Assembly (NCBI GenBank): GCA_013127575.1
Contig: CP053418.1
Location: forward strand, 992,001-1,056,000
Source: Ramlibacter terrae
GTDB lineage: Bacteria; Pseudomonadota; Gammaproteobacteria; Burkholderiales; Burkholderiaceae_C
Length of the DNA: 64,000 nucleotides
Reading direction: 5' to 3'
How positions within the stretch are numbered: the first letter of the stretch is position 1; each line of letters starts with the position of its first letter. The translations under genes and the position numbers were made by a program. The notes under the pieces are model-generated. The model made no database searches and was not told the origin of the DNA. It saw only the letters and a list, made by a program, of their open reading frames with translations. Positions 54,792-63,520 of this stretch are shown one piece after another.

Positions 54792-55583
54792 CTAGCGGCG
54801 AGACCCGAACAGGCCGCGCAACCACCCGGTGCGCGGCGCGTCGCGCAGGGGCGGGCGGGGCACCGTGGAAGGCACCGCGTTGTCCGGGATCATCCGCGGG
54901 CGCCCGCGCACGAGCAGTTCGGCCTCCTCCCGCCCGAGCAGCCGCTCGGCGACTTCGCGCGCCTTGGACATGACCGGCGAGCGCCGGCCGGCCGAGTGCG
55001 CGTCGGTGGCGAGGATGTGCGTCATGCCGTCGCCGAGGAATTTCTCGGCCCAGTACTTCGCGCGCGTGCCGAACACGCCGGTGACCGCGCCCGCCGTGAC
55101 CTGCATCCAGCACCCCTGCCTGACCGGGTTGCCGAACACCGCGTAGTTGTCCTCGACCCGGGTGAGCCGCTCCGGGTGCGTGATGACGGGCACGTAGCCT
55201 TCGGCGACGAGCTGGAAGACCGATTCCTCGAAGCGGGGCGGCGCGACATGGTGCGACGGTTCGAGCAGCAGGTAGCGGGTCTGGTGCAGGCACGGCACGG
55301 TGCCGGCGCGCAGGCCTTCCAGCAGGCCCGGCACCAGGTGCACGTCGGCGCCGATGGTGAGCTGCAGCGGGATCCCCGCTTCCTCCGGGGATTGCTGGAG
55401 CGCGTCGCGCGCAGCGGTGATGCCGGCCGTGGCGTTCATGTACAGGCCGGGGTAGATGTGGGGCGTGCATGCCATGACCTCGATGCCGTCGGCCACCGCG
55501 ATGCGGGCCATGTCGAGCGACATCGCCAGGCTGCGGGAGCCGTCGTCGATGCCGGGCAGGATATGGCTGTGGAGGTCAATCAT
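54792..55583 (-). CDS. PHP-family tyrosine-protein phosphatase (CpsB/YwqE-like)
   Basis: This intact protein of 263 residues has the PHP metal pattern: MIDLHSHILPGIDDGSR, CTPHIYPG, VITHPERL and ATDAHSAGRRSP. Family members dephosphorylate bacterial tyrosine kinases in capsule and EPS synthesis; the Wzc-like kinase lies 5 kb upstream in the same locus. Its start overlaps the Wzy-like gene stop by eight bases, so translation is coupled. The last 25 residues are basic and rich in Pro/Arg. Confidence 0.88.
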   Translation of the reverse strand: MIDLHSHILPGIDDGSRSLAMSLDMARIAVADGIEVMACTPHIYPGLYMNATAGITAARDALQQSPEEAGIPLQLTIGADVHLVPGLLEGLRAGTVPCLHQTRYLLLEPSHHVAPPRFEESVFQLVAEGYVPVITHPERLTRVEDNYAVFGNPVRQGCWMQVTAGAVTGVFGTRAKYWAEKFLGDGMTHILATDAHSAGRRSPVMSKAREVAERLLGREEAELLVRGRPRMIPDNAVPSTVPRPPLRDAPRTGWLRGLFGSRR

Positions 55584-56973
55584 CGGCAGCCTCCTTGCGC
55601 CCGGTGACGGACAGGGGCCGCAGGTACACGCCCGCCAGCAGGGCGGCCGCGATGGCGTTGGCCGGGATGTGCATGTTGAATTCCGCCGGGCAGTGCACCG
55701 GGAAGCCCAGCAGGCCGATGCCGCAGATGGCGGCGGCCATGGCTTCGCGGGAGAGGCGCCTATCCTTGAAGGCCATGCGGACCAGCAGCGCCGCCCGCTG
55801 CAGGGCGAGCCAGCCGAAGGCGGCGATGAGCAATGCGCCGAACACGCCGCCTTCGAACAGCATCTGGGCGTAGTCCTGGTGCGCGTAGTGGGCGGTGCCG
55901 ATCAGCGTTCCCGGCTGGTACCGAGGGTACACCTCGAAGTAGGTCCCCCAGCCGGAGCCGAACGGCAACAGTTCGGCCGCCCCCGCCCGTGGTGCTGGTG
56001 GCCTGGATGAGGCGGAACGGGACATCCCCCGCAACCCGCGCCAGGTCGAACCGCGCCACCAGCGCATCGAACCCGATCAGGGCGAGCGCGGCGGCAAGGA
56101 CGCCGCCGATGATCCAGAACGGCCGCCGGGAATCGGAATAGGCGCACGGACGCCGGCTGGCGGCGAGGGCGACCCCGAACGCGAGCATCGCTGCCGGAAG
56201 CCCGGACAGGGCGGCCGCGCGTGACCGCGAAATCAGGATGCCGACGAGCAGCAGCACGGCGCCGGCGGCCAGCAAGGCGACGGAACGCATGACGCCGGCC
56301 TCGTCGCGCGCGGCGAAGCCGCCGCGCCGGCGGCGGTCGGTCAGGTGCAGCCAGGCCAGCCAGATGTAGGCGGCCAGCGCCATGCCCACGTAGTTCGCGA
56401 AGTGGTTCGAGTTGGCGAAGGTGCCGAAGGGCCGCGTGCCGGTCCGGGGGCTGCCGAAGTAAAGGGTCGAACCCGCCCCGCCCGCAAGCTGGAGCATCCC
56501 CATGAGGACCTGCGCGAAGGCGACGCCGACCAGGACGCGCAGGATCCATTGCAGCTGGCGCAGGTCGGCGGGTAGGCCGCCGCGAAGCCCGCCACGATGG
56601 GAATGCCCGCCAGCAGCGAAACGCTCGTGGCATTCGGTACGAGCGACAGGGGCCGCCACTGGCCCGGGGCGATGCCGATGCCGGCCAAGAGGCCGACGTA
56701 GTCCGCGCGGCCCGGCACGGCCTCCCACAGGCCCGGAGGCAGCGGCAGCAGGTAGATGACGGCGAGCCACGCCGGGCTGCTCAGGAGGAAGGCGAGGAGC
56801 CAGCCGGTGACGGACAGCCGGGCCGCCGGCCGTGGCATCCGTGCCAGCAGGGCGACCGGGAACACCGGGGCCACGCCCTCGAGCACGATGAGGGCGACGT
56901 TGCGGTTGCCGCCGCGCATCAGCGGCGCCGCGACCAGCAGCGAGAGCAGCGCATAAAACGCGGCGGGGCCCAT
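55576..56973 (-). CDS. O-antigen ligase/polymerase (Wzy-like) membrane protein
   Basis: This protein of about 465 residues has at least ten membrane segments and the O-antigen ligase family core: GTFANSNHFANYVGMALA followed by LISRSRAAALSG. A periplasmic loop near the C-terminus holds GSGWGTYFEVYPRYQPG and a His-rich HYAHQDYAQML, typical of the ligase/polymerase loop. Frames break near 55985 and 56577, the latter repaired as AAYLADLRQLQWI by restoring CCTGG. It likely polymerises the EPS repeat. Confidence 0.87.
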
Positions 56974-57011
56974 GGGCCCCGCAATTGCCGGTGTCTGGCC
57001 GGCGCCGGACG

Positions 57012-57488
57012 TCACCGAGCGCTGAGCGGCTGGTCGTCGTCGATGATCTGGCGGAACGCGGCCCCCGCGATGCCTGCCGCACCGGCCAGCCCGATGGCCT
57101 GCACCAGCAAGGGAGAGGGCGGGAACTGGGGCGCGACCCCCACCGGCGCGATGGGTTGCACGGCGGCGGCGAGTTGCTGGCAATTCATGCTCTGGAGCAC
57201 CGTCACGCCATGGGCGGACGGGACTTCGACCGTGCAGCCGCTGTTGAAATTGAGGGTGGCCGAGCCGCCGGTGGTCGTCACGATCCGCATTCCGTTCTGG
57301 ATCACGGTGCCGGGAGTCACGACCATGCCGGTGGCGCCCTGCGTCGCCGTGACGACGCCGTTTACGTTCGACACGGTCCCGAGGGGCGTTTGCGCGAAAG
57401 CGGAAACACCAATGAAAGCTGCTGCGGCAACGAGAAGCAGTTTTCCGGGACCATGGTGTGCTTTCGAATGACTGTGACGACGAGTCAC
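57012..57488 (-). CDS. Exported FecR-like domain protein in EPS locus
   Basis: This intact protein of 158 residues has a signal peptide (LLLVAAAAFIGVSAFAQ). The mature part starts GTVSNVNGVVTATQG and continues with GTVIQNGMRIVTTTGGSATL and GCTVEVPSAHGVT, matching the beta-rich FecR-type domain that is often found alone in polysaccharide loci. A later hydrophobic GLAGAAGIAGAAF may be a membrane anchor. It has a lone Cys pair (GCTVEV, MNCQQL). Function is unknown; a structural or scaffold role for the exporter is a guess. Confidence 0.65.
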   Translation of the reverse strand: MTRRHSHSKAHHGPGKLLLVAAAAFIGVSAFAQTPLGTVSNVNGVVTATQGATGMVVTPGTVIQNGMRIVTTTGGSATLNFNSGCTVEVPSAHGVTVLQSMNCQQLAAAVQPIAPVGVAPQFPPSPLLVQAIGLAGAAGIAGAAFRQIIDDDQPLSAR

Positions 57489-57527: not shown

Positions 57528-58717
57528 TCACTGCGTGGTTCGCGCGAGGCTGAATGCGTCGAGTGAAACCTGGCCCCGCAAACCCGCGGCGGCCTCGAAA
57601 GCCGCCGCCGGAGCCAATTGAAGCGTCACGACCGGGCCGCATTGCGCAGGCACCGTGAACTCCATCTGGAATTTCCTCCAGGGAGCCGCCGGTTTCCAGC
57701 AGCGGCGGCGAGCTGCCGACGAGATTCTTGTCGCCGGTGCCGCACCCGATGCTCCATACCAGCCCGGCTTCGGAACGGAGCTTGGACGCGTATTCGCCCG
57801 CGAGCCGGTACGTGCCGGGCGGCGCGAACACGTGCTGGCGCAGGATCGACGGCGTGAACCGCCGGCCGGTGAATTCCAGCTCCAGCACCAAACCCCGCCG
57901 CGCCACCATGGACTGGCTCACCGTCACCCCCGCGCGGCTGCGCGCCACCGGGGTGAACTCCCAGTCGAAGCCGTCCGCCTCCAGCGGCTGGTCGAAACCC
58001 GCGTTGTACAGCAGCGGCACCACTTCCTTCTGGTACACGAGCCACAGGCCATAGGCGTCCAGCCACTGCCCGCTGCCCTTGAGGAAGCGCATGTAGCTCC
58101 GGCGCGCATCGTCGGGCAGGCTGCCCGCCTCGAGCGCGGCGGCCACGAGAGGCAGCGCCGCACCGGCGGGCAGGCTGAGGCTGGGAAACTGGGCGAGCAC
58201 CGCCGGCAGCCAGCGCTCGGCATCGGGCAGGTGGGGGCGCAGCAGCGTGATCCCCTCCCGGTCGGTCGCGATGCGCGCGAGCAGGCGCGCCGCGTCCACC
58301 GACTCGCGCTTGTCGACCATCTGCACCAGGACCTCGATGCCCTTGGCATGCTCTCCGGCCTGGAGGGCCCGCAGCGCGCGCCAGCGCAGCACGTTCGGGT
58401 GGTTGGGCGCCACGGTCGACGCCGCCGTGGTGACACTCTCCGAAGGATCGCCGTTGGCGACGAGCAGCCTGGTCAGGCCGGGCATCGCCGGGATTCACGG
58501 CGATCCGATCCCGCAATGCCTCCTGCACCGCCGCCGGGTCGGACGGAGCATCGCCGCACAGCGGAAGGTACGGGGTGTCCATCAACGTGCAGGCGCGCTC
58601 GAGGTTGGCGACGACGGCCACGGCAAAGACGCCCGGGGCGACGAGCGCGCAGGCCGTCGCGAACTTCCAGTTCGGGGCCGGCGCCAGTTCGGGCTCCGCC
58701 GTGTCAGTCGGATGCAC
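57528..58717 (-). CDS. Membrane-anchored protein with C-terminal jelly-roll (CBM-like) domain
   Basis: This protein of about 395 residues starts (GTG) with a short cytoplasmic part and one membrane helix (ALVAPGVFAVAVVAN). A helical, TPR-like region follows (about 70-220), then a beta-rich domain with FTPVARSRAGVTVSQS, LVLELEFTGRRF, GTYRLAGEYASKLRSE and, after a frame repair near 57686, WRKFQMEFTVPAQCGPVV and GQVSLDAFSLART, the pattern of a CBM4/9-like sandwich. Breaks near 57686 and 58488. A sugar-binding role on the EPS chain is inferred from fold and neighbours. It overlaps the J-domain gene by 14 bases. Confidence 0.62.
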
Positions 58718-60312
58718 CGCTCAGCCCTTTCAGCAGCACCTTGCCGCCGCCGGACGTGAATTCCGCGCGCACCAGCAACCTTTCGCCGTGCGAACCGATG
58801 GTGGGTTCGCCCACGTGCAGCCGGATCCTTCCCGTCACCAGCAGGGTGCCATCCTGCGGTTCACCCCGGAACTCGACCTGCGTGAGGCGAACCGGCCGCA
58901 CGCCTTGCACCATCTGGTCGTAGCTGCGGGCGAAAGCCAGCGCGGAGGGCGCCCGGCGGCTGTCGGCATCGAGCAGGCGAAGCAGCTGTTCACCGCTGCC
59001 CGATTCGAGCATCTGCAGCAACTGGGTGAGCAAGGGCTGCGCATCGGCCAGCGTCGGTCCGGCGGGGGCGGCGCTGGACGCGCTGCGCACGGGCAGGGGC
59101 AGGGGCAGGGGCAGGGGTGCAGGGCGCGGCGGCGGCGCGACAGCAGCTGGGGGGCGACGGCCGGAGGCGGCTCCGGCGGCTCGCTGGCCCGCTGCGGCAA
59201 GGCCGGGACGGTCGGCTGCGCGATTGCGACCGCGACCGGTGGCGGCTCCGCGGGCCGCACCGTCACGGACTGCGCGGCGGGAGGCGCCGGATTGGCGGCC
59301 ACGGGGCGCGGGGTGAACGACGGCGCCACCGAAGGCGCCACCGAAGGCGCCGCCGCCGTCGCGGCGGGCTGGTAGCGGAAGGCGGCCGGCGGAGCGGGAG
59401 GCTGCGGCTGGGCAGCGGGAGGGGGACGGCGCGCGGGGCTTCCGCGCGCGGCGGTGGCGGGGGCACCGGCGCGGGCTGCACTTGCGCGACGCGAAGGGGC
59501 GCCGCGACCGTTTCCGCAACGGGGGCCGCGGCGACGGTGGCTGGCTGCGCGGTGGCGACGCTCGCGGGCGAGAGGTTGCCGGCCGCCAGCAAGGCGGCAG
59601 CGGGCTCGGGCGGCGGGGGCTCCGCGTGGCGCGTGGGGGCGACTGCGTTCGGATCGGAGGCCGGCTTCTGCACCAGCGCTTCCTGCTCCACGCGGGGCAT
59701 CAGGAGGATGCCCGTCACGACCGCGACGCCGGCCGCCACCAGCGCCCAAGCGAGCTTGCGCTTGGTCACGGGGTCTTCATCGGCATCCGTCGCGGATTCG
59801 GGCCCCGGCCGGCGGGGGTCCATGCCGCGCGCCGCGGCCGGACGCTCGGACGCGAGCGCGGCCAGCTGCCCGTCGTACTCCGCCCGCAGGACGGGCGAGG
59901 ACAGGACTTCGTACGCCAGGTTGACCCGGACGGCGGCATCGGCGGGCCGGGGCGCGGAACCCGAGCCGGCGAAGTCGGGGTGGATCAGCCGCATCAGCAG
60001 CCGGTAGCGTTCCTTCACGTCGACCGGCTCGGTGCGCGGTGCGAAGCCCAGGACGGCGTAGTGGTCGGCGCCCGGATAGAGCAGGGCGGCGCGCAGGAAG
60101 AAGGCAGCGGCCTCGCGCAGGCCGGGCTTGCCGGCGGCGTCGGGGCTCAACCCGCGGCCGGCTGCGATCTGGAGCACTTCCCGGATGGACCCGAACAGCA
60201 GGACCGGTTGCCTCAGCGCCAGCTGGTGCCGCCCGGGGAAGGCGAAGTAGTCCAGCAGGGCGGCGTGGAGGGCAGGAGAAATGGCGGTGGTCGGCTCTGC
60301 TGCGTCTTTCAT
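58704..60312 (-). CDS. J-domain protein with membrane anchor and Pro-rich linker in EPS locus
   Basis: This protein of about 536 residues has an N-terminal helical region, then a J domain at about residues 82-150 (YAVLGFAPRTE, LIHPDF with the HPD tripeptide, VNLAYEVLS), a membrane helix at about 190 (AWALVAAGVAVVTGILLM), a very long Pro/Ala-rich linker and a C-terminal beta-rich domain (LTQVEFRGEPQDGTLLVTG). The linker carries PLPLPLPLP from a hexanucleotide repeat. Frames break near 59162 and 59435, both at C-runs. Putting an Hsp70-recruiting domain in an EPS membrane complex is unusual. Confidence 0.7.
59091..59117. repeat. Hexanucleotide tandem repeat (GGGGCA)n in J-domain gene
   Basis: About four and a half copies of GGGGCA encode (Pro-Leu)n on the minus strand. 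Tandem six-base units do not shift frame, but copy number may vary between strains. Confidence 0.75.
59321..59352. repeat. 12-base tandem repeat in J-domain gene linker
   Basis: Two and a half copies of GGCGCCACCGAA encode the tandem SVAPSVAPS on the minus strand. It lies in the proline-rich linker. Confidence 0.7.
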
Positions 60313-60326
60313 TGGCCCGTCCGCGC

Positions 60327-62660
60327 TCAGCGGGCTGCGCCGGGGCCGGCGTCGAGCCGTCGCTGGGCCCGTAGCCATAGTACGACTCGTAGTCTTGCGG
60401 CATCGCGTGGTTGAGCGCACGGGAGAGCACGACGCCTCGCGGCACCAGCCCGCCCTGCCGCAGCCGGCGCAACGCCTGCTTGATCTGCGACTTGCGCGTG
60501 GTGCTGGCCTGCACGACGAACAGCACGTTCTGCAGCTGGTTGCCCAGTACGACGGAATCCGCCAGGCCGAGCATCGGAGGCGCGTCGACGATGACGTAGT
60601 CGACGCCCAGCGCGGCCGTCAGGTCGAGCAGCAGCAGGAGCTTCGGGCCGGTCAGCAGGTCGACCGGGTTGGGCGGCAACGGACCGGCGGGAAGCACCGA
60701 CAGGTTGGGCACCACCGTCTGCGTGAGCAGCCGGTCGACGCGGCTCTCGCTCGAGAGCAGGTTGGACAAGCCGAAATCGTTGGCGATGCCCAGCATCTTG
60801 TGGATGGTCGGATTGCGCATGTCGGCGTCGATCAGCAGCACCCGCTGTCCCATCTGGGCGAAGTTGATGGCGAGCGCCAGCGACGTCGTGCTCTTGCCTT
60901 CGTTGCGGGTGGTGCTGGTGATCACGAGGCGCTTCGGCGCACCGTTGGCGGTGGAGAACTGCAGCGCCGTGCGGACCGACCGGTACGCTTCCGCGATCGC
61001 GGACTGGGATCCTCGTGGACCTCCATGGCGACGATCCGCCGCTTGCCCTTCAGCTTGGGGATGATGCCCAGCAGCGGGAGGCCGAGCAGGCGCTCGACTT
61101 CGTCCGGGTACTTGATGGAGTCGTCCATGACCTCGAGCACGGCGACGATGGCGGCGCCGAGCAGCAGGCCGGCCAGCAGGCCGACCAGCACGTTGCGCAG
61201 CAGGTTCGGCTTGTACGGGAACAGCGAGGGCTCCGCCGCGTCCACCACCGAGATGTTGTTGCTCGCGACCTCGCCGGAGACGCCCAGTTCCTTGAACCGC
61301 TGCAGCAGGCTGTCGTACAGCTGGCGGTTGGTGTCGACTTCGCGCCGCAGCAGGTTCAGGTCGATGCTGTGGTCTGGGTGGTCAGCACCTGCTTGCGCGC
61401 GGCGCCGAGCTTTTCGCGCAGCAGCGCTTCCTGCCGGACGGCGGAGTCGTACTGCGCACGGAGCATGGCGGCGATGTTCTGCACTTCGCTCTTGATCTGG
61501 GCGTCGGTTTCCGTGATCTGCGCCTTGATCTGCTGCATCTTCGGGAACTCGGGCTTGTAGATGCGCAGGTTCTGCTGGTATTCGATCTCGAGCTCCGCCT
61601 TGCGCTGCTTGAAGGCCAGGACGCTCTTGCTTTCGGTCACCGCCGCGGTCGCTTCGGGGTTGCGCCGCACCTCGGCCGCCACGGATTCGGCCTTGATGCG
61701 GTCCTGCTCCGCCTTCGCCGGGGCGGCGGCGTAGTCGGTGTACGTCTGGTTGATCGGGTTGGTGTTCTCGCCGAGCGTCAGGATCTGGTTCGCCTGCGCG
61801 AACGTATTGAGCTTCCGCTCGGATTCCTCGAGCTTGGCCTTCATCTGCTTGATCTGCTCGTCGAGGAAACGCTTCGCATAGGAAGACGCTTCGAGGCGGC
61901 GTTCCATGCCCATCGCGATGAACGACTGCACCATGGTGTTGGCGATGCGCGAGGCGAGCGCCGGATTGGTGTTGTCGACATGCAGGGTCAGCAGCCGGGA
62001 GCCGGGAATCGGTTCCACCGAGATGGAGCCGAGGAACTGCCGGATCACTCCTTCGCGGCCGAGGACCTCGGGGCTGCGGGTGCTGGGATGCGTGAGCTTC
62101 TGGTAGCCCGAAATGATGCGGTCGAGGTAATCGGGGTTGGAAGGCGCGTCGGCGGCACCGCCGGTGTCCTGTCCCCCGAGCTGGCGGGCGGGAGACAGGT
62201 TGAGGGCGGCCTGCCCGTTCGAGGTGGAAGTGTCCAGCCGTAGCTCGTCGATCACGCGCTCGGCCAGCGACCGGCTCTTGAGGAGCTCCTGCTGCGTGCG
62301 GATCGAGGCGGCGTCGTCGCCGCGGCGATTCTGGTCGGGGTCGTTCTGGAACTGCACCACGCGCGGCGTCACCTGTTCGATCTGCAGGATGACGCTGGAG
62401 CGGTACACGGGCGTGCTGAGGAAGGTGCGGACCGCCGCCACCGTGGCGCCGAGCGCGATGACCGGGAGCAGCGTCCACTTGTGCTTGTAGACGATCCGGC
62501 CGATGTCGGTCAGGGTCAGGGAATCGTCGCCGACCGGGTCCTCGTCGGGGCGCACCGCTCCGCCCAGCTGCAGTTGGTGCGGCTGGCGCAGGGCCAGTTC
62601 GTTGGCGACGGTCGGGGCGAATCCCGATGCGTCGTCCCGCGAGAGTTCGGAGGCTGACAT
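60327..62660 (-). CDS. Polysaccharide co-polymerase / tyrosine autokinase (Wzc-like)
   Basis: This protein of about 777 residues fuses a chain-length domain and a BY-kinase. The first membrane helix is at about 58-76 and the second after FPYKPNLLRNVLVG. The periplasmic part is coiled-coil (LDEQIKQMKAKLEESERKL). The kinase has Walker A STTRNEGKSTTS, Walker A' LIDADMRNP, Walker B DYVIVDAPP and a tyrosine-rich tail YESYYGYG for autophosphorylation. Frames break near 61375 (repaired as TQDHSIDLNL) and 61007 (DPRSAIAEAYRS), both CCAGG. The end is uncertain because of another likely indel near 60350; a stop at 60327 leaves 14 bases before the J-domain ATG. Confidence 0.9.
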
Positions 62661-62708: not shown

Positions 62709-63520
62709 TTAAGGCACGAGCGCCGAGAAGGGGTTGATCGAGTTGATGACGTCGCGGAACACGGAGTCCGTCAGCAGGACGCGGGTCGGGTCGCGCAGGA
62801 TGACCACCAGGTCGTCGCCGCGCAGCTGGGGATCGTCGGCCTCGCCGGCGCGGATCCGCTCGACGTCGAACGTCGCGACCGGCGGGCGCCGTCCTGCCCT
62901 TGCCGGTACACCTTCACTTCGGTGGCCTTCGCGATGCGGCCCGGGCCGCCGGCCATCGCCAGCGCCCGAAGGAGCGTCATCTCGCCGACGATGGGATAGA
63001 TCCCCGGCTTGCCCACGGCGCCGTCGAGGGTGATCTGCTGCGTGGTGAATTCCTTGATGAAGACCGAGACCTGCGGGTCTTGCAGGTACTTCTGCGCATA
63101 CATGCTGGCGATGTGCTCCTCGGCCTGGTGCTGGGTCAGGCCGGCGAGGGTGACCGAGCCGATCAGCGGGAGCGAGACGTAGCCGGCCGCATTCACGCGG
63201 ACGCTGCGCTTGCCGTTCTCGACGTTCAGAACCTCGATGTCGAGGAGGTTGTTGGCGCCGATGCGGTATTCCGCGCCAAGGCCGGTTCCCATCGCCGGCA
63301 CGGGCCCGGAGGGTTGGGCGCCCCCGCCCGCATCCGCCGGTGCGGCCTGTGCGCCGGCGGCGACGCCGCCCGCCTTGGGGACGGGCGGAAGGTTGCGGAA
63401 CTGTCCATCCGGCGCGGAGGGCGACAGGATGTAGTTTTCGATCGAGCGCTGCGCGAAGCTCCCGGTAGCCACCAGTGCCAATGCCCCCGCGAGCGCAAAC
63501 CGAACCAGAGTCGGAGACAT
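62709..63520 (-). CDS. Outer-membrane polysaccharide export protein (Wza/EpsE-like)
   Basis: This protein of about 270 residues has a signal peptide (ALAGALALVATGSFAQ), an N-terminal linker, the poly_export domain (EYRIGANNLLDIEVLNVENG) and an SLBB-like domain (GAVGKPGIYPIVGEMTLLRA). It lacks a lipobox Cys, so is a short Wza type. One frame break near 62886 is repaired as GARLVATFDVERI by restoring CCTGG; the end is NPFSALVP. First gene of the EPS run; Wzc follows after 48 bases. Confidence 0.9.

Follow-up and report, generated by a model that had tools for sequence, protein, structure and literature searches.

A J-domain protein with an NTF2/SnoaL-like domain, encoded directly behind a Wzc-type kinase, suggests Hsp70 involvement in exopolysaccharide export in Ramlibacter terrae and related bacteria

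DjlA of Escherichia coli carries a membrane-anchored cytoplasmic J domain, and its overproduction raises capsule synthesis via Rcs: the protein loosens the IgaA-RcsD interaction and activates Rcs, for which its J domain, DnaK and GrpE are required (PMC11709261). In cyanobacteria, the DnaK1/DnaJ3 system is required for a polysaccharide (PMC9239167), and StkA of Myxococcus xanthus, an Hsp70 homolog, affects the level of exopolysaccharide (EPS) (PMC4319316). The Wzc kinase has been proposed to cycle between an octamer and phosphorylated monomers during export (PMC8285477). In the available excerpts of these papers, none of the Hsp70 or J-protein effects on polysaccharide reported for E. coli, cyanobacteria and Myxococcus comes from within an export operon. 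Here we describe a gene at positions 58704–60312 (minus strand) of a 64,000-nucleotide stretch of Ramlibacter terrae DNA (hereafter the window; positions 992001–1056000 of CP053418.1, a 5.28 Mb single contig with a completeness of 63.7%). The gene encodes a J-domain membrane protein and lies directly behind the gene for a Wzc-type EPS kinase. Because such a J/NTF2-like membrane protein is encoded right behind the EPS kinase in many related bacteria, the comparison suggests that an Hsp70 chaperone helps to run the export machine, and the constant position of the J gene after a single kinase subtype marks a concrete point at which the machine itself could be acted on by Hsp70.

The encoded protein starts with a conserved helical region (residues 1–82, 60067–60312), seen in the alignment and in a model of the relative from locus L036, followed by a J domain (residues 83–147, 59872–60066), a membrane helix, LAWALVAAGVAVVTGILLM, with TKRK before it (residues 187–205, 59698–59754), a Pro/Ala-rich linker (59058–59697) and a conserved C-terminal domain of about 117 residues (58707–59057), all on the minus strand. 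Residues 1–210 match PF00226 with 43.2 bits against a cut-off of 27.8 (E 4.3e-11, over residues 83–147), the L036 model matches J-domain structures, and the HPD motif (residues 111–113, 59974–59982) is intact; across the 15 closest J-protein sequences, the alignment shows no variation in Y-R-x-x-M-R-L-x-H-P-D. DnaJ is the only Pfam family to pass its cut-off for this region, as well as for the whole protein of the L021 relative. A basic stretch lies between the J domain and the helix, which has a mean hydropathy of 2.37, with five Lys and Arg residues before it and two after. In the 36 family members compared, the top-scoring 19-residue segment downstream of the J domain reaches a mean hydropathy of 1.68–2.85, and Lys plus Arg are more frequent in the 20 residues before the helix than after it in 33 (G020 and G909 are ties, G662 is reversed). 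Since this excess follows the positive-inside pattern, the J domain is predicted to be cytoplasmic and the C-terminal domain to lie outside the inner membrane. An earlier description of the window made without database searches, here called the sequence-only reading, had recognized the intact J domain, and the helix and long Pro/Ala linker that follow it, and these features are borne out; its placement of the C-terminal domain in the periplasm agrees with the predicted topology.

As assembled, the gene does not occupy one frame. Its 1609 bases are no multiple of 3, and the J part, the middle of the linker and the C-terminal domain lie in open reading frames (ORFs) in three different frames (59263–60420, 58835–59749 and 58704–59519, respectively), so that the frame shifts twice within the linker, in the interval from about 58835 to 59749. 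The relatives have a single open frame from stop to stop, of 506, 475, 536, 515, 542 and 499 aa in G011, G042, G002, G054, G012 and G112, and since this ORF runs through all parts, an interpretation as two separate genes was rejected. The sequence-only reading of one protein over the whole span is therefore upheld as to the gene, and fails only as to its frame in the assembled sequence. Using the L021 proteins as queries, Wzc, the J protein, the next membrane protein and Wzy are each found split over several frames of the window; each is in one frame in L022, L023, L024 and L029, and the J, membrane-protein and Wzy genes are broken in L025. The dnaK-like gene of the same genome is matched in three frames. 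Because the relatives have one ORF, and the same kind of breakage affects the genes nearby and the dnaK-like gene, the frame changes in the J gene are probably indel errors of the assembly. Decay into a pseudogene is unlikely, given that the dnaK-like gene is frame-broken as well and that an excess of third-position differences from relatives persists in both the N- and C-terminal segments (differences at codon positions 1/2/3 are 50/42/102 against G022 and 29/22/63 against G028). The two strongest Hsp70-family genes of the genome (3415450–3417232 and 3033517–3035186) are each matched in more than one frame, which points to widespread indel errors in this assembly.

The C-terminal domain was described as beta-rich in the sequence-only reading. 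A conserved domain is indeed present, but the models of the window domain and of L036 give an alpha+beta fold, with three helices followed by a curved sheet, rather than a merely beta-rich one. For the L036 protein, which is intact, an AlphaFold2 model built from an alignment of 7 sequences has a mean predicted local distance difference test (pLDDT) score of 56.7; its N-terminal, J and C-terminal domains are fair to good (70–87 in most blocks), and residues 155–380, which include the linker, are below 50, with the membrane helix not resolved therein. In VIA comparisons, this model matched the J-domain structure 4wb7_A (Z 9.8, root-mean-square deviation 1.7 over 71 aligned residues) and the NTF2 structure 1ask_B (Z 10.0, deviation 3.5 over 109 residues). 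A single-sequence model of the window domain has the same fold (mean pLDDT 65.5), although the alignment-based model of full-length L036 is the stronger of the two in its C-terminal part; in Foldseek it matched NTF2-like entries with a probability of 1.00, with a best E-value of only 2.6e-3. The Pfam scan gave no SnoaL profile match for the window domain. Among 10 distant relatives scanned, SnoaL profiles passed their cut-offs in two (SnoaL_2 in L119, 28.2 against 27; SnoaL_4 in L129, 24.2 against 24), and SnoaL or DUF4440 matches fell below cut-off in six; no SnoaL-type match was among those listed for L130 and L121 (best 25 families for L121). Z values of this middling size are common for such folds, and it is the fold match together with the SnoaL sequence matches in relatives, not Z alone, by which the modelled domain is assigned as NTF2/SnoaL-like. 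Variation in the linker was also noticed: at L120:9120–10967, as in some relatives, the Pro/Ala-rich stretch is replaced by a long charged one, coiled-coil-like in appearance, and the linker of the J-like protein at L128:6898–9045 contains a weak TPR signal below cut-off. Two adjoining ORFs at L019:1307–4378, L,D-transpeptidase-like and TPR, have C-terminal stretches that look NTF2-like by eye.

The closest named relatives with the same J protein are mostly Ramlibacter, along with Caenimonas and Comamonadaceae, and the carriers are environmental bacteria, some of them cultured. In the genus, 16 of 59 genomes, including that of the window, have the EPS-type J protein. The order Wza-Wzc/kinase-J is found in 14 of the 16 loci, the contigs of the other two (L032 and L033) ending too early, and the next membrane protein directly follows the J gene in all 11 loci whose contig reaches it. 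Among 299 genomes of the family, J-region matches with E<1e-30 occur in 9, and these same 9 genomes hold the kinase-subtype matches with E<=2.2e-80; the next best kinase scores 2.7e-38, and a kinase match of any kind at E<=1e-25 is found in 135. The J profile took rows from three of the nine J-bearing genomes. At all nine top kinase loci the J gene lies ~90–440 bases downstream of the kinase. A search with the C-terminal domain retrieved 7 of the 299 genomes, namely six of the nine and G188, where the contig covers no more than the C-terminal end of the J gene; the three J genomes missed are G264 and G335, which have short ORFs, and G281, whose C-terminal stretch is too divergent for the profile. 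No plasmid match to the L021 protein was found. Weaker, mostly partial-length J matches were dropped as ordinary DnaJ/CbpA-type without being inspected singly (E-values of 1.7e-10, 3.8e-14, 1.1e-17 or 8e-17 and weaker, depending on the search), and G888, whose ORF reads as a CbpA-like protein, was left out. In many genomes the profile search scored only part of the first-pass candidates, so members may have been missed. The co-occurrence with Wza, Wzc and Wzy genes that the sequence-only reading had suggested checking is supported.

Of the 30 kinase loci fetched in the family, the 21 with the next-best kinases had no J gene detectable with the J profiles at E<=0.1. This bears on the view that the J protein is a biogenesis factor, through which DnaK assists the insertion or folding of EPS membrane proteins such as Wzy and Wzc, instead of regulating the working machine. 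J proteins commonly aid folding, and the spacing of the genes is operon-like: the kinase stop and the J ATG are separated by 12 bases in L021 and 11 in L022, and the J stop and the next ATG by 7 bases in both. However, folding assistance would not call for an NTF2-like domain that reaches the periplasm by way of a long linker, and the 21 loci without a J gene also speak against it; we consider this role quite unlikely.

The search was widened to 399 genomes of the order, 274 of the class, which we take to be Gammaproteobacteria in GTDB usage, 200 of the phylum and 40 of the order of G808. Beyond the window's genome, family members were found in 2, 10, 2 and 11 genomes, respectively, with G808 counted twice; proteins of this layout are also present beyond the window's own family and order and, in the case of G1091, beyond the class. 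In total 49 loci were examined, including a paralog, two contig-edge cases (G051 and L160, counted apart) and two loci each from G000 (gene and paralog) and G1213; L152 duplicates G808 and was not counted. A kinase lies directly upstream of the J gene in 39 of the 49 (39 of 47 testable loci), 8 are without one, and 2 are at contig edges. Around each of the eight, no kinase match at E<=1e-3 was found within 18–20 kb. The HPD motif is kept in 41 of the 49 loci, with 38 of the 39 kinase-adjacent members retaining it compared with one of the eight at kinase-less loci; Fisher's exact test over the 47 loci gives p 1e-6, which overstates the correlation because there are only about two independent changes on the tree described below.

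The adjacency of kinase and J genes in these 39 loci would also fit a different relationship, in which the J domain brings DnaK to the kinase as a substrate or regulator and stress state and EPS are coupled via tyrosine phosphorylation of DnaK. A precedent exists in Bacillus subtilis, where the tyrosine kinase (BY-kinase) PtkA phosphorylates DnaK at Y601 and the Y601F variant interacts less well with DnaJ and GrpE (PMC4835898). The precedent is nevertheless from Bacillus and not from a Gram-negative Wzc kinase, and the periplasmic domain would be left unexplained, so that this relationship appears improbable.

We instead favour, with a probability of roughly 0.45, a reading in which the protein is a co-chaperone of the inner membrane, devoted to EPS export, through which DnaK reaches the Wzc kinase ring. 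The N-terminal helical region and the J domain would reside in the cytoplasm, where the J domain would recruit the housekeeping DnaK to the neighbouring Wzc ring, while the flexible linker would extend the NTF2-like domain into the periplasm to contact the Wzc/Wza assembly or its glycan. Binding of DnaK and use of ATP might help to dismantle or rebuild the Wzc oligomer in the phosphorylation/dephosphorylation cycle, and export could in this way be coupled to what the periplasmic domain senses. We infer the Hsp70 action, that is, the recruitment of DnaK, the kinase ring as its client, and the sensing role of the periplasmic domain; what is observed is how the protein is built, that its HPD is intact, that the gene order is conserved and that the gene pairs with a single kinase subtype. 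An action of DnaK on the kinase ring leads among the mechanisms because the pairing places the J protein right at the kinase. The tight spacing of the genes in L021 and L022, the retention of HPD in kinase-adjacent members and the invariant motif around it also favour this reading, for which DjlA, the proposed Wzc cycle and DnaK1/DnaJ3 serve as precedents. The window's genome has a dnaK-like gene. A dedicated Hsp70 within the locus was considered and rejected, as no Hsp70 match lies there.

Several observations weigh against the co-chaperone reading. Gene neighbourhood alone is insufficient to make the kinase the client, and the kinase profile was built from J-adjacent kinases, including those of six of the nine family genomes, which makes the pairing itself part of how the subtype is defined; the score gap does not depend only on these rows, since G000, G209 and G335, which are absent from the profile, score like the rest. 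Two kinase-adjacent short forms, in G335 (239 aa) and G264 (272 aa), are without the NTF2-like domain, so this domain is not essential to the pairing; the ORFs of G1091, of the second G1213 copy (L169) and of a paralog in the window's own genome likewise do not contain it. This paralog (251 aa, L019:9863–10615, around positions 2016917–2017477 of the contig) has a J domain, HPD and membrane helix, with no NTF2-like domain in that frame, and lies beside an ORF that is lysC-like by eye, with no kinase match at E<=1e-3 within 20 kb and no EPS gene recognized. The J gene of G792, which encodes a fusion to an AAA ATPase, adjoins SpoVR and has no recognized EPS gene nearby; like the paralog, it argues against an exclusive EPS link. 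The sequence-only reading would have been undermined by relatives that occur apart from polysaccharide genes; most are linked to such genes, and the paralog and G792 are the members without a recognized link.

That HPD is lost in 8 of the 49 loci argues against a simple role with Hsp70 throughout the family. The degenerate forms are QPD, CLD and TIG (two each), YQD and WRE. On a rough midpoint-rooted FastTree tree of the short J region, the losses amount to about two events, one in a seven-member clade (support 0.66, with 0.90 for a group of six within it) and one in G935. G841, a member of this clade, is still beside a kinase and has an inserted response-regulator domain. The loss in a branch of the family keeps alive the main rival, in which the J or J-like domain is mainly a protein-binding scaffold that docks on the kinase or another EPS component without Hsp70, the protein then bridging cytoplasm and periplasm in a structural or signalling capacity. 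Pfam DnaJ still passes its cut-off in all six HPD-less members scanned of the eight, and six of the eight kinase-less loci are near a polysaccharide gene: Poly_export and YjbH in L123 and, by eye, L124, a bacterial sugar transferase in L126 and, by eye, L127, a WecG-type transferase in L128 and a CpsB-like ORF, by eye, in L122. The response-regulator insertion in one member and the AAA fusion in another would also suit a scaffold. However, the retention of HPD in all but one of the kinase-adjacent members despite large divergence is hard to explain without use of Hsp70, and we regard the scaffold as possible, at odds clearly below even. Just as tentative is a broader view, in which these proteins would represent an undescribed, widespread class of EPS machine: a transmembrane co-chaperone would let DnaK pull apart or reset the Wzc ring, the NTF2-like domain would report on the glycan or the envelope, and a side branch would have lost contact with Hsp70 and been rewired, through the response-regulator insertion and AAA fusion, into a signalling scaffold.

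Among the variant proteins, that at L125:9078–11597 has its response-regulator receiver domain between the J-like domain and the membrane helix, and the same locus contains a separate small SnoaL-like gene (L125:13061–13624, below cut-off). The J-NTF2-type protein at L121:7744–10413 has its AAA ATPase (AAA_22) fused at the N-terminus.

The remaining genes of the locus are all on the minus strand of the window. A Wza-type outer-membrane export protein (62771–63520; Poly_export PF02563 with E 1.3e-20, and SLBB, in the L021 relative) holds a conserved position in the gene order, its last stretch apparently out of frame by eye. The Wzz/Wzc chain-length part of the kinase (61356–62660; PF02706 Wzz in the L021 relative, E 1.5e-11) shares a single ORF with the kinase domain in each of L022, L023, L024 and L029; in the window, the C-terminal part of Wzc, a cytoplasmic tyrosine autokinase (BY-kinase) domain matching AAA_31 and ending in a YESYYGYG tail (60313–61488), is split over frames. 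The whole Wzc of L022 scores 163.4 bits against TIGR01007 tyrosine autokinase (cut-off 108.05). Two other kinase types were rejected for this protein, the XrtA/PEP-CTERM kinase (124.1 bits, pepcterm_TyrKin cut-off 230.65) and the EpsG-type kinase (109 bits, cut-off 313.8); a Wza score of 74 against a cut-off of 180 came from a partial protein and was not counted in the XrtA comparison. Downstream of the J gene is a membrane-anchored protein, in several frames (57540–58717), whose L021 relative has no match in NCBIfam and in Pfam only TPR_20 below cut-off (E 0.026). The sequence-only reading placed the J gene between a Wzc-like kinase and a probable sugar-binding membrane protein; the placement is correct, and 'sugar-binding' finds no family support. 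It is followed by a small, weakly FecR/LapA-like protein with a signal-peptide-like start, in conserved order (57012–57488; NF033682 at 26.3 bits in the L021 relative, cut-off 50), a Wzy/O-antigen-ligase-like polymerase split over frames (55615–56979; Wzy_C PF04932, E 1.3e-12 in the L021 relative) and a CpsB/CapC family protein (54792–55583; PF19567, E 9.5e-53 in the L021 relative). Genes for Wza, the Wzc kinase and Wzy thus lie together at the J locus, as in a Wzc BY-kinase EPS locus.

Taken singly, J proteins of the membrane, NTF2-like domains and Wzc loci are already known. Among the best 10–20 matches listed in the open-licence literature, none dealt with this protein or connected a J protein with Wzc or a BY-kinase, in agreement with the sequence-only reading, which knew of no characterized member; nor did these listings contain the J/NTF2-like fusion or its constant position after one kinase subtype. 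Term searches of PMC1569441, PMC9850573 and the Ramlibacter tataouinensis genome paper (PMC3164672) gave no match for DnaJ. With the Wzc BY-kinase EPS machinery the J locus shares its Wza, Wzc, Wzy and CpsB-like neighbours, but here a J protein is part of the operon, whereas the excerpt of PMC8285477 mentions none for Wzc. The C-terminal domain, as modelled, shares the fold of NTF2/SnoaL-like domains and differs in being joined to a J domain across the membrane. StkA is an Hsp70 and a negative regulator, whose neighbours stkB (SCP2-like) and stkC (PhaE-like) do not encode J proteins (PMC4319316), and DnaK1/DnaJ3 are linked to type IV pilus motors, their polysaccharide effect being stated by the authors as the major gap in their model (PMC9239167). 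DjlA consists of an N-terminal helix, a TerB-like domain, a C-terminal J domain and a short periplasmic end, and acts through Rcs (PMC11709261). The window protein does not have this layout: its J domain is N-terminal of the membrane helix, its NTF2-like domain is predicted to be periplasmic, and its gene lies in an EPS operon beside that of Wzc.

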